Positions 53,575 to 59,637 of a stretch of 64,000 nucleotides of DNA are shown in pieces. Each line of letters starts with the position of its first letter. Position 1 is the stretch's first letter. The notes below the pieces were generated by a model that worked only from the letters and a program-made list of their open reading frames with translations, made no database searches and was not told where the DNA came from. A program made the translations under genes and the position numbers. Location: assembly GCF_000970285.1 (NCBI RefSeq), contig NZ_CP009516.1, positions 496,001 to 560,000 on the forward strand, read 5' to 3'. The DNA comes from Methanosarcina horonobensis HB-1 = JCM 15518. Its GTDB lineage: Archaea; Halobacteriota; Methanosarcinia; Methanosarcinales; Methanosarcinaceae.

Positions 53575-54273
<699 letters not shown>

Positions 54274-55620
54274 GTGGCTATCCATCCTATAGAATACCGG
54301 TACGGTACAGCGGAAATGAAATATGTATGGAGTCAGGAAAATAGACTAGCTAAGATCTTACAGACCGAGGCAGCCCTTGCCCGGGCAGAAGCGGATATGG
54401 GACTTATCCCGGCAGAAGCAGCTGAAGTTATATCCGAATGTATTACATCTGTAAAGGCCGGAAGGGTTGACGAAATTGAAGCCGAAATCCATCATGATAT
54501 GATGGCTGTTGTTGTTGCGATTTCAGAAAAGTGCAGAGATGATGCAGGCAAGTGGGTTCACTTCGGAGCGACTTCAAACGATATTCTTGACACGGCAACG
54601 GCTCTCCAGATAAAGGATGCAATTGATATATTGGAAGATAAACTCAAAATTCTGCTTAAAGTTCTGGTAAACCAGGCAGAAGTCCACAAAAATACGGTTT
54701 GCTGCGGAAGAACGCACGGGCAGATAGGCGTTCCAACAACCTACGGACTTCGTTTTGCAATCTGGGCTTCCGAGATTTCAAGGCACCTTGATCGTCTGTA
54801 CGAACTGACTCCAAGAGCTACCGTAGGGCAGATGACCGGAGCTGTCGGGACTCAGGCAGCTTTTGGAAAATCCGGGGTTCTGATCCAGAAACTTACAATG
54901 CAACATCTTGGTATCGGGGCTGTGGACGTCTCAAACCAGATCATCCAGAGGGACAGGCATGCCGAATTTGTTATGTGGATGGCAAATACTGTTACCACTA
55001 TGGATAAAATCGGGATTGAAATAAGGACGCTTCAGCGCAGTGAGATTGCCGAGATTGAAGAGAGCTTTGGGAAAAAGCAGGTAGGTTCTTCTACCATGCC
55101 TCACAAGCGCAATCCTATAAAGTCCGAGCAGATATGCGGGCTCGCGCGGATAGTAAGGGCAATGGTTGAACCTGAACTTCTTAACAACACATTATGGGAT
55201 GAACGGGATCTGACAAATTCTTCTTGTGAACGAGTTGTTTTCCCTGAAGCCTGTGTGCTTACGGACCATATCCTTAAACTCGGAATCAGTGTTCTTGAAA
55301 ACCTCAGGTTCTATCCCGAAAATATTCGTAGAAACCTTGACCTGCTAAGAGGTCTGAATATGGGCGAAGCTGTAATGATAGAACTTGCAAAAAGAGGTGT
55401 AGGCAGGCAGGAAGCCCACGAACTTGTCCGGACTGCAGCAATGAGAGCCCATGACACAGGCCAGCACTTCAAACAGGTTCTGCTGGATACTCCATCTGTT
55501 TCAAGGTATCTGAGTGCCGGAGATATTGAAAACCTTGTAAACCCTGATAAGTATATAGGAACAGCAGTGGAACAGGTTGAAGGGCTCGTTGTAAAACTTC
55601 GTGAAACTTACTCCCTCTAA
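54274..55620 (+). CDS. purB: Adenylosuccinate lyase
   Basis: PurB splits SAICAR and adenylosuccinate in purine synthesis. The 448-residue fumarase-fold protein has AIHPIEYRYGTAEMKYVWSQ at the N-terminus, the catalytic-His segment CCGRTHGQIGVPTTYGLRFA (about 143-162) and the signature GSSTMPHKRNPIKSEQ (about 269-284). GTG 54274 is chosen because GGTGAT at 54264-54269 would lie inside the gene if the GTG at 54265 were used. Monocistronic, with a large gap downstream. Confidence 0.96.
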   Translation: MAIHPIEYRYGTAEMKYVWSQENRLAKILQTEAALARAEADMGLIPAEAAEVISECITSVKAGRVDEIEAEIHHDMMAVVVAISEKCRDDAGKWVHFGATSNDILDTATALQIKDAIDILEDKLKILLKVLVNQAEVHKNTVCCGRTHGQIGVPTTYGLRFAIWASEISRHLDRLYELTPRATVGQMTGAVGTQAAFGKSGVLIQKLTMQHLGIGAVDVSNQIIQRDRHAEFVMWMANTVTTMDKIGIEIRTLQRSEIAEIEESFGKKQVGSSTMPHKRNPIKSEQICGLARIVRAMVEPELLNNTLWDERDLTNSSCERVVFPEACVLTDHILKLGISVLENLRFYPENIRRNLDLLRGLNMGEAVMIELAKRGVGRQEAHELVRTAAMRAHDTGQHFKQVLLDTPSVSRYLSAGDIENLVNPDKYIGTAVEQVEGLVVKLRETYSL

Positions 55621-55847
55621 CCTTTTCTTTTTTGCCATTTCTTTGTCAAGAAAGACTGTTTGATATTTTTTATATACATATTTCCTGAGCATTATATTCA
55701 TTTGGTTATCTTTTTTTACAAAAAACGTAATTTTTGCATACTGACGGCTCTATTTATTTAAAAAGCATATTGAATTACACAAAAATGTAAATGAATTTAT
55801 ACAAAAGTAGATAATTATTCATTACACTGCATATTATAGTCGAGATT

Positions 55848-55865
55848 AAATATAAATATTTATAT
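55848..55865 (+). promoter_or_regulatory. Promoter (TATA box) of RNA element 1
   Basis: AAATATAAATATTTATAT is identical over 18 bp to the sequence upstream of the second element. Conserved bases continue (GATGAATTCTAT). Transcription would begin near 55873-55878. Confidence 0.6.
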
Positions 55866-55921
55866 CCGATGAATTCTATCTATCTAAAACCTTTATCAAA
55901 AGTCTATCCGAATTGGGTGAT

Positions 55922-56014
55922 GAGGCATCTAAAAATAGGCGTTGCGTAATTTAAAAATCTATTTGGGCTAGATGTGGTAGATGATTTACGGTGCGAAAGT
56001 GGATTAGATGCCTC
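55922..56014 (+). ncRNA. Putative structured RNA, copy 1
   Basis: A 93-bp element bounded by GAGGCATCTAA and its exact reverse complement TTAGATGCCTC, so a transcript would close with an 11-bp terminal helix. Inside, GCGTTGCGTAA pairs with TTACGGTGCG around a hairpin ATCTA/TAGAT. A near-identical copy lies at 56538, with 6 of 93 bases different. Four of these six keep pairing (G-C to A-U, U-A to U-G, G-C to G-U). Both copies follow the same TATA box. No open reading frame of note. I know no matching family; the true transcript ends are unknown and probably extend to about 55875-56050. Confidence 0.6.
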
Positions 56015-56476
56015 CTTTACTCCTACGTACAGGTTATTTATAAAATTTGTGCTAATCTCACCAGTGATTCTTCTTAAAAAATTCCCTCTCCCCTTACCTA
56101 TTTTTATCATCTTTCATATCTTGTTTAGCCAGTAGAGTTTTATTTTGAAGCATTGGTCTTTACTGATCCTTCCAGAGTAAAGATTGCAGGTAAAGTTTTC
56201 TTTACAAGCAAGATTTTTCTGATTTTTATTCCTATCTGTATTTTGCAAAATATTTACCTGTCTGGATTTGCGGAATAATATCAACAGTATCGCTCTTACT
56301 AGTAATTCCAATGGGTTCTTTATGCCCTGACCCTGGTGAGTCGAGAAAAAGAGAGAAACAATTTTTGTAGGGATATTAAAGCTTTTGATTCTTCACAGGT
56401 TTTAATGCTCTACTCTATACAAAATTATTTCTTTTACTTTAAAAGAAGACTGACTTGATATTTTATTTTACGAAAA

Positions 56477-56494
56477 AAATATAAATATTTATAT
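56477..56494 (+). promoter_or_regulatory. Promoter (TATA box) of RNA element 2
   Basis: AAATATAAATATTTATAT, identical to the box at 55848-55865. Its distance to the element is 61 bp from box start, versus 74 bp for copy 1. Confidence 0.6.
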
Positions 56495-56537
56495 ATGATA
56501 ATTCTCTATCCAAGTAAGCACTGCTTTGTGTGGTATT

Positions 56538-56630
56538 GAGGCATCTAAAAAACGGCGTTGCATAATTTAAAAATCTATTTGGGCTAGATGTGGTAGATGA
56601 TTTGTGGTGTGAAAGTGGATTAGATGCCTC
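56538..56630 (+). ncRNA. Putative structured RNA, copy 2
   Basis: Second 93-bp copy, with the same perfect 11-bp ends and internal stem (GCGTTGCATAA with TTGTGGTGTG). Similarity to copy 1 also continues past the 3' end: AGGTTATTTATA then AATTTGTG is shared 15-40 bp downstream. That the promoter and downstream parts are duplicated with the element favours a duplicated gene over a transposed MITE. It lies in a 1.3-kb gap between purB and the convergent ramA. Confidence 0.6.
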
Positions 56631-56936
56631 AATAATTCCTTATGATGAGGTTATTTATATAATTTGTGTTTATTCTGCACACAACCGCCCAAAACTTCCT
56701 TCTTGTTAAACCTTACTTTTCTCTTTTGTTTTGAATTCATTAAATGAGCTTCCTATCCCGAATTTTTTCCCAGTGTTTATATATAAACAGAACAATACTT
56801 AACGGCACTTTTAAATACCTTCAGGCGGATTTGCCCACATCTATTACTCCAAAAATATGTATTTGCCAGTTTTAGACTGACATTTTTCTACACTATCAGG
56901 ATCTTGGAATGCCGGTTCAGTGGTGATAAAACAGTT

Positions 56937-58565
56937 TCACTCCTGTTGCTCTGGTTTGAACACCTCAAGGTTCTCCCAGCTAAATTTGTCCGGAGGGCAA
57001 GCCCTTATGCATTTCTGGCAGTGTGCGCCCTCGCAAAGATCTGTACTTATCATAACCCTGTTTTCTTCATCAATTGTGATGGCTTCGTTAGGGCAGACTC
57101 TAATACACTTCCTGCATTCCGGGCAGTCAGCAACGACCATGGTCATATAGGTCCCCACTCTCTCAAGCACATGCAGACCTTCTTCCCCGAGAATAGGAAT
57201 ATCTCTCTCCACACGCTTATCCACAACAGGGTTGCTTATGGGTTCATCAAGTGATGGAAGTCCTTTCTTTTTAAGATACTTCTTAAACATCTTGAACGGC
57301 ATTCCCTCTTCCCAGTACGCAAGTTCAAGGACATAAGCATCCCGGAATTCCGGGGCAGTAGCAAACATTATGTGAGTGCCTATTATCTGGCTTGCAATGT
57401 CCTGAAGTTCCCAGAGCCTTTCTTCCGAAAGCAGGATCTCCTTTGCAACTGCAAGCGAGGTATTCCCAAGCTGGGCAATTTTTCCTGTTGAGTAAGGGAT
57501 TAGGCCAATTTTCTGGGCTTTTTCTGCATCCATATATGTGCCGGCAGCTCCTGCCATATACGCAGTGTCAATATCTGTCAGTTGAATGCCCGCAGCCGCA
57601 CAGAGAGTGATATGTCCTGCCCTGATTGCACCGATTGCTTTTCCTGCCTCTTTAAGGTCTCTTTCCGAGAAGGTTATTCTGTCCTGCAGGTGAATCAGTC
57701 CGTCAGGAGTCTTGATTTTTGGGAGCTCAACCAGATCGTGCCCCATGGCTTTTTCTATAAGAGCAATAACTCCCGTGCCTGTGATTCCTTTTGCCCTGAT
57801 CTGCCCCTCATCAAGAACTTCTCCGGTTTTAGGGTCGATAAGGTCTCCTGGATCTGATTTCATCTCTTCACTCAATACGTAATTTCTCAATGCTCCGTTC
57901 TCGAATTCAAAATCCGAAATTGCAAAGGGAGATGCAAGGGTTCCGTGCTTTATCTGTTGCCCTTCAAGAGCAGGACCTGCAGCTGCCGAGCCTGTATAAA
58001 TGATATCTTTTACTTTGAGTGCCATCTCGGCGTTAGTTCCATAGTCTGTTGCAATTGAAATCTCATCGCTATCAAGCATTCCTGATTTAGTTATCAGAGC
58101 AAGGGCATCGGCTCCTACTTCATGTTTTATTGCAGGAGGGACTACAACTTCACAGTTGAACTCCTCAAGCCCTGAAATTTCGGAGCTGGATATTATTCTT
58201 GCATCCCTGTTCTGTTCCTGTATATTGTACTTCTTTTTCTTACGTTCCCCTGCATAAGCCAGGTCTTCAATACTGATTCCCTGAAAAATGGATAACTGGA
58301 TCGGGTTTCCGCAGATAGAAAGTCTGTCCAGTTCTCCGCTTTGCACATCAAGTGTCTGGAACAGATTTTTTACTGCATTTATTGAGAGTCCATGCGCAAG
58401 ATCCTGCCCGTAATGAATTGCGAAGTCCATGTGATCCATCACATTCGCTCCTGGAAGGGGGTTTCTCAGTGTTATTACTGTCCTTTTGATTTCTTTTGTA
58501 TCCAGGTCAATCTTTTGAGCTCGATATCCACTTGTTCCCAGGTCAACTGCAACTCCATATCTCAT
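56937..58565 (-). CDS. ramA: Methylamine corrinoid protein reductive activase
   Basis: RamA uses ATP to reduce the inactive Co(II) corrinoid proteins of methylamine methyltransferases to Co(I). The 542 residues start with an ASKHA-type ATPase domain (MRYGVAVDLGTSGYRAQKID) that continues through IATDYGTNAEMAL and AYMAGAAGTYMDAEKAQKIG (about 339-358). Two C-terminal [4Fe-4S] motifs follow: CPECRKCIRVCPNEA (about 485-499) and CEGAHCQKCIRACPPD. The length and domain order match RamA rather than bacterial RACE proteins, whose ferredoxin is N-terminal. No methylamine methyltransferase genes are adjacent. Confidence 0.93.
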   Translation of the reverse strand: MRYGVAVDLGTSGYRAQKIDLDTKEIKRTVITLRNPLPGANVMDHMDFAIHYGQDLAHGLSINAVKNLFQTLDVQSGELDRLSICGNPIQLSIFQGISIEDLAYAGERKKKKYNIQEQNRDARIISSSEISGLEEFNCEVVVPPAIKHEVGADALALITKSGMLDSDEISIATDYGTNAEMALKVKDIIYTGSAAAGPALEGQQIKHGTLASPFAISDFEFENGALRNYVLSEEMKSDPGDLIDPKTGEVLDEGQIRAKGITGTGVIALIEKAMGHDLVELPKIKTPDGLIHLQDRITFSERDLKEAGKAIGAIRAGHITLCAAAGIQLTDIDTAYMAGAAGTYMDAEKAQKIGLIPYSTGKIAQLGNTSLAVAKEILLSEERLWELQDIASQIIGTHIMFATAPEFRDAYVLELAYWEEGMPFKMFKKYLKKKGLPSLDEPISNPVVDKRVERDIPILGEEGLHVLERVGTYMTMVVADCPECRKCIRVCPNEAITIDEENRVMISTDLCEGAHCQKCIRACPPDKFSWENLEVFKPEQQE

Positions 58566-58878: not shown

Positions 58879-59193
58879 TGATGAGCTAGTCCGGGTAGCC
58901 CGGCGTTACCTGTAACCCGAAATCGCCGATACGCGGGGGACGAAGCCAAAGGAAGATGCGCCAGAGAGATTCCAGCCTGAAATCTCAACTGAGAAGCCCC
59001 GTCCTGCTTGGATGGTGCAGGTATGCGGACTTGCTGGAAAACAGGTTCTCATGCCCTAATCGTGGAAACCGGTCGAGGCCCGGAAGGGAGCAGACTTACC
59101 GTGGGCAACCGTCGCTTGCGGGGTCGCGGGGTGGAGAAGAGATTTCAGTCTACTGGAGCCTCCGAGGTACAACGACCTGAGGCGTGCTCATCA
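58879..59193 (+). ncRNA. Signal recognition particle (7S) RNA
   Basis: Archaeal-type SRP RNA of about 315 nt. The ends pair: TGATGAGC at 58879-58886 with GCTCATCA at 59186-59193 (helix 1). The highly conserved helix 8 sequence GTCGAGGCCCGGAAGGGAGC lies at about 59073-59092, followed by AGACTTACCG. The 5' Alu-like part CCGGGTAGCCCGGCG is also typical. A TATA box lies 20-30 bp before the 5' end. Open frames crossing this region are chance events. Confidence 0.93.
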
Positions 59194-59357
59194 CTATACA
59201 TATTATTAGATCTTTTTTATATTAGATCGTTTTTAATAGCTTGGCTTTATAATATAACTGTGATTTTTCTGGATTGACTTCTTAGACATGTTTTCTCTCC
59301 GGAAAAGGTTAAATATATGAAATGCATTTTAGGGGACGCGTTTCTAAAGTTCGATAT

Positions 59358-59442
59358 GACGAGATAGCCAAGCCCGGTATGGCGCGGGATTGCTAATCCC
59401 GTGATGCCCTGCATCCCGGGGGTTCGAGTCCCCCTCTCGTCG
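59358..59442 (+). tRNA. tRNA-Ser (GCT)
   Basis: An 85-nt class II tRNA. The acceptor stem is GACGAGA with TCTCGTC and discriminator G. The anticodon loop TTGCTAA gives GCT, which reads AGC/AGU serine codons. A long variable arm (about TGATGCCCTGCATCC) and T-arm GGGGGTTCGAGTCCCCC are present. CCA is not encoded. A TATA-like TTAAATATATGAAA lies at about 59309-59322. Confidence 0.95.
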
Positions 59443-59637
59443 TTTCTTTTTTCATAGATTCTTTTGTCTTAATTCTTATTTTTGTTTTTGTCTATAACTC
59501 TTAGTCTTCTGTATGTAAATTTTATATAAGATCTCACCTTATACCCTGTAATTAAAACTTCAATCTTATGCCTATTTATCAGTCTGGAAACTCAATGAGT
59601 TTAAGGCTTTATCGACAAAATAGATCGAGTCAAAACA

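Follow-up and report, generated by a model that had tools for sequence, protein, structure and literature searches.

To our knowledge, few archaeal small RNAs (sRNAs) have known roles. The architecture of Y RNA is one of paired ends around a large, pyrimidine-rich open loop. In Methanosarcina mazei, 199 intergenic sRNAs were listed in a 2009 study, as given in a table in PMC5867862. Among the described M. mazei RNAs, sRNA154 is intergenic, conserved in Methanosarcina and carries a loop with an anti-ribosome-binding-site sequence, and sRNA41 has been proposed to mask several ribosome-binding sites (PMC5867862). sRNA162 and sRNA171 are homologous intergenic sRNAs which arose by duplication and whose binding regions are diverging (PMC3510493).

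We re-examined a window of 64,000 nucleotides (the whole stretch of DNA analysed) from Methanosarcina horonobensis HB-1, in which two 93-bp elements with inverted-repeat ends lie between purB and ramA. The element is probably a real and conserved small-RNA gene, present in duplicate and probably read from the minus strand. As with sRNA162 and sRNA171, there are two homologous intergenic genes. However, sRNA162 and sRNA171 are 191 nt long with three stem-loops and have only one copy in each of M. acetivorans and M. barkeri, whereas ours are about 93 nt with one clamp, and are present in two copies while missing from many Methanosarcina. Identity with sRNA162/171 was rejected, as length, fold and neighbours (MM2441/MM2448) all differ (PMC3510493), and location and anatomy rule out both these RNAs and sRNA154 (PMC3510493, PMC3177094). 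The likeness to sRNA154 lies in an intergenic archaeal sRNA conserved in Methanosarcina, with a loop proposed to reach ribosome-binding sites; in contrast, sRNA154 has two loops, while our pair sits at purB-ramA and has a different upstream motif. The NrpR operator GGTA-N6-TACC, a feature of sRNA154, was absent from the element promoter sequences when these were read by eye. The likeness to sRNA41, judged from its description, is the proposed masking of ribosome-binding sites.

The original prediction knew of no matching family, and the Rfam 15 covariance models likewise gave none above the gathering threshold, the best score being 18.5 bits against 88.5; the likeness to Y RNA is an analogy of shape only. 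A literature search found no paper describing RNAs at the purB-ramA locus, and an RNA from this locus may already be in the 2009 M. mazei list. The element is a new family of a known kind, set apart from sRNA162/171, sRNA154 and the Rfam 15 families, but not from sRNA41.

The paired elements between purB and ramA

Both copies lie in the gap at 55621-56936 between the convergent purB (plus strand) and a ramA-like gene (minus strand). The features of the locus are as follows.

54265..55620, plus strand: purB (adenylosuccinate lyase), convergent neighbour, named as in the original prediction
55848..55870, plus strand: TATA-like palindrome left of A (AAATATAAATATTTATAT), candidate antisense promoter, predicted start about 55888
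55922..56014, minus strand: putative small-RNA gene A, predicted 5' end 56014 (+/-2)
56004-56014 pairing with 55922-55932: clamp stem of gene A
56034..56051, minus strand: predicted BRE/TATA of gene A (CACAAATTTTATAAATAA), scoring 13.4 bits, with 34 nt from motif start to element
56477..56499, plus strand: TATA-like palindrome left of B (AAATATAAATATTTATAT), candidate antisense promoter, predicted start about 56517
56538..56630, minus strand: putative small-RNA gene B, predicted 5' end 56630 (+/-2)
56651..56668, minus strand: predicted BRE/TATA of gene B (CACAAATTATATAAATAA), scoring 12.2 bits, with 35 nt from motif start to element
56664..56684, no strand assigned: palindrome TTGTGT-N9-ACACAA, overlapping the BRE of gene B, candidate operator
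56677..56694, minus strand: conserved element upstream of gene B, TTTTGGGCGGTTGTGTGC, the sole exact genome match to TTTTGGRYGGTTGTGYRC
56937..58565, minus strand: ramA-like gene, convergent neighbour, named as in the original prediction, with orthologues found

Re-examination recovered the pair of 93-bp copies, whose 11-bp ends (GAGGCATCTAA/TTAGATGCCTC) are perfectly complementary, and a recount of the differences between A and B again gave six substitutions. The duplication of the surrounding sequence, also part of the original prediction, was confirmed on both sides, with AAATATAAATATTTATAT common to 55848 and 56477 on the left and AGGTTATTTATAWAATTTGTG common to both copies downstream. In gene B the clamp is extended to 15 bp. 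A search of the 5.02-Mb genome itself returned the second copy at E = 7.8e-41 and no third. This value, together with the retention of both copies at the same place in other genomes, shows that the pair is not due to chance. An archaeal SRP RNA gene (58879-59193) and a tRNA-Ser gene (59357-59443) are found nearby, both on the plus strand.

Distribution among related methanogens

Fifteen related methanogen genomes retain the element, in almost every case as a pair. Exactly two copies were present in 10 of the 31 Methanosarcina genomes searched, this genome included, while most of the others have a short purB-ramA gap devoid of the element. purB orthologues are 83-97% identical in 28 other Methanosarcina genomes. 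Across the genus, the conserved islands in the purB-ramA gap are the two elements and their flanking motifs.

A covariance search of relatives, which the original prediction had proposed as a check, found two copies in each of four genomes of a sister genus (g5), and three copies over two genomes of another genus (g4). Matches in g4 and g5 had E values of 4e-18 to 3e-7, and those of pairs at purB-ramA reached as low as 1e-23. In all 13 genomes, from two genera, in which both neighbours were read intact, the pair sits between purB and ramA. One of the g4 copies follows purB, and the other two are relocated to other loci. G108 yielded a single copy; the other genomes have two, mostly at one locus. 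Private changes common to both copies of a pair in G022, G020 and G008 suggest occasional gene conversion between paired copies.

A wider model run over 186 genomes of the order found no further credible relatives. G062, at 27.5 bits with this model, is probably a chance match, G030 (30 bits) was not accepted as its sequence differs, and a Heimdallarchaeota match (L063) is due to chance and lies inside an apparent lysyl-tRNA synthetase gene. The viral contigs searched for the element gave no match.

Individual loci showed further variation. Just 3' of purB in G002 (L105), a relic minus-strand promoter and upstream motif are present and the element itself is gone. In G110 (L044), from the sister genus, tandem CTGTACAATCTAAAAA-type units stand before copy A, also just 3' of purB. 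The ramA-like gene beside the pair in G025 (L057) was matched only as short, partly overlapping pieces and is thus rearranged or replaced there.

Promoters and strand

Promoters were scored with a matrix of 15 positions, for which the sequences upstream of 14 tRNA genes and of the SRP-RNA gene, all from this genome, served as training set. Two minus-strand sites, 56048 with 13.4 bits and 56665 with 12.2 bits, rank within the best 1e-4 of positions, while the plus-strand sites at 55855 and 56484 scored 11.2 and 11.1 with the same matrix. In 30 of the 31 copies the start of the minus-strand BRE/TATA is 34 or 35 nt away from the element, the exception being G025_B, a copy from a fragmented MAG, which is without it. 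A single gene whose 5' end is defined, that of the SRP RNA, underlies the argument from spacing; it is itself in the training set, and its motif begins 33 nt before the gene. A motif 34-35 nt before the element would therefore place the RNA start at, or 1-2 bases before, the first clamp base. At the motif level, the element has its own predicted minus-strand promoter in an intergenic gap between convergent genes, which is a criterion for an sRNA.

The plus-strand TATA of the original prediction is genuine, and most purB-linked copies have kept it. However, its distance to the element varies, typically 54-72 nt where it is recognisable, and several copies, both relocated ones and G007_B among them, lack it or have no recognisable form of it. 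Both relocated copies retain the minus-strand promoter, and its fixed spacing, with no recognisable plus motif at these copies, indicates that it is the minus promoter which travels with the element. Being a palindrome, the plus TATA can be read leftward as well, which leaves its direction uncertain. In the sister genera the clamp is followed on the minus strand by U-tracts, most marked at the relocated copies (AATAGTTTTTTAGAATTTTTT); in Methanosarcina this position holds only short T runs and no strong U-tract. On these sequence grounds the minus strand is probably the transcribed one, a preference short of proof. The plus-strand transcription originally predicted is probably wrong, as a constant promoter on the other side puts the start at the element edge. 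Strand choice based on TATA boxes can thus err where an element whose ends are palindromic has promoter motifs of opposite direction on its two sides.

Clamp, loop and coding potential

Over 31 copies and nine pairs, 273 of 279 clamp cells are Watson-Crick. Of the six exceptions, five hold G-U on the minus strand and the sixth would hold G-U on the plus strand; since about two events account for the five, they are weak evidence of strand. One clamp pair varies between U-A, U-G and C-G and is the only compensatory change, the clamp being too conserved for covariation to test the rest.

The loop is about 70 nt long, with conservation highest in its 5' half (AAUCCACUUUCACACC...AUCUACCACAU). The minus-strand loop has 8% G and 30% C and is mostly unpaired. 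The original prediction placed an internal stem here. The changes between A and B do keep plus-strand G-U or A-U pairs, and several changes near 55988 keep plus-strand G-U pairs, the strongest point still in favour of that strand, but covariation in the inner stem among 20 copies equalled that of shuffles (0.077 versus 0.079). Loop folding was no better than shuffles, with z = 0.03 for the plus strand and -0.54 for the minus strand, and the internal plus-strand stem was rejected.

No frame on either strand is open throughout all 31 copies. The best, minus frame 0, is open in 17 and broken in 14, and element lengths (81, 82, 86 and 91-95 nt) change in steps that are not multiples of three. Both argue against coding, and a small protein was rejected as a candidate.

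Alternative explanations

The reading we consider probable from the sequence comparisons is a tandem pair of minus-strand sRNAs, each with a clamp and an open loop for mRNA pairing. The original prediction of RNA genes on the plus strand, with 20-34-nt leaders and the downstream motif being something else, can draw on AAATATAAATATTTATAT, kept left of most purB-linked copies, and on changes of the UACGG to UGUGG type that preserve plus-strand G-U pairs. However, the variable distance and lower scores of that motif, the lack of a strong motif in several copies (both relocated ones included) and a loop no more stable than shuffles all speak against it, and it leaves the minus promoter without explanation; we regard it as quite unlikely. 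Transcription of both strands from convergent promoters, the plus RNA silencing or sponging the minus RNA, would account for the conservation of both promoter motifs, which are both in the top 1e-4 of positions. An antisense RNA sharing the palindromic clamp and annealing over the whole loop might then tune a duplicated, differently regulated sRNA. Since the relocated copies and G007_B are without the plus motif and the leftward reading of the palindrome leaves its direction unsure, this scheme and the tuning it would entail both seem to us unlikely.

The element could also be a protein-binding or DNA-level repeat, or a small-peptide gene, instead of an RNA. The perfect inverted-repeat ends would suit the former and the 17 open copies of minus frame 0 the latter. 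This is, however, very improbable given the 14 broken frames and irregular lengths, the promoter spacing, which suits a gene, and the absence of MITE-like spread. MITE-type copies elsewhere with target duplications were sought and none found, and a MITE or transposon was rejected on the basis of two copies per genome with no dispersed spread. The paralogous small-RNA gene pair is well supported, and the original interpretation as a whole is partly supported.

Divergence of copy B

Within the minus-strand sRNA pair, the copies differ upstream. TTTTGGRYGGTTGTGYRC followed by the BRE precedes copy B and, in the sister genus, both copies, but has been lost before copy A in Methanosarcina. TTTTGGRYGGTTGTG is found in the promoter region of gene B. 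In the B copies of the sister genus both arms of the palindrome have changed together, to TTGTGC/GCACAA, so that across genera it reads TTGTGY-N9-RCACAA with co-changing arms. The natural reading of this pattern is a dimeric regulator that would bind at copy B. Copy B keeps the operator-like site and Methanosarcina A has lost it; thus A and B probably respond to different signals, and the site would give B separate regulation from A. A regulon of the upstream motif was rejected, as there is one exact site in the genome and near-matches were no commoner than for a reversed control.

Proposed mechanism and targets

On the observed conservation, promoter geometry and clamp, we infer how and from which strand the pair is transcribed, where its RNAs end, that they act by base pairing and how they are regulated, as follows. 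Tandem paralogous non-coding RNA genes would be transcribed leftward (minus strand) into RNAs of about 93-120 nt, each copy from its own BRE/TATA promoter, with the RNA start at the right edge of the element and transcription ending in U-rich sequence past the clamp. The RNA ends would pair as a 9-11-bp clamp, holding open the G-poor, C/A/U-rich, sequence-conserved loop of about 70 nt. Such a loop in a clamp is what would be expected if the RNA paired with G-rich ribosome-binding sites, and the loop most likely pairs with mRNAs, probably at such sites, as proposed for sRNA154 and sRNA41 (PMC5867862). The sRNA is unusually testable, being conserved past one genus and paired with diverged promoters, and genetics exists for M. 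acetivorans and M. mazei.

Targets were scanned at 982 predicted gene starts, about a quarter of the genome. Duplex energies at these starts were no better than those of dinucleotide-shuffled RNAs and exact loop matches were close to controls. Pairing with mRNAs is put forward as the probable function from the character of the loop. A gene at 2208905 was rejected as a target, having no orthologue above the cut-off. At genome position 262829, a GT2 gene has an 11-nt loop match at its ribosome-binding site that several species retain; the gene is not claimed as a target because close orthologues are missing in other genomes, including G001. The relocated copy in G108 (L061) has immediately on its 5' side a reading frame similar to the membrane tail of a GT2 glycosyltransferase. 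That a GT2 gene also carries the loop match at a ribosome-binding site with the best conservation is probably a coincidence.
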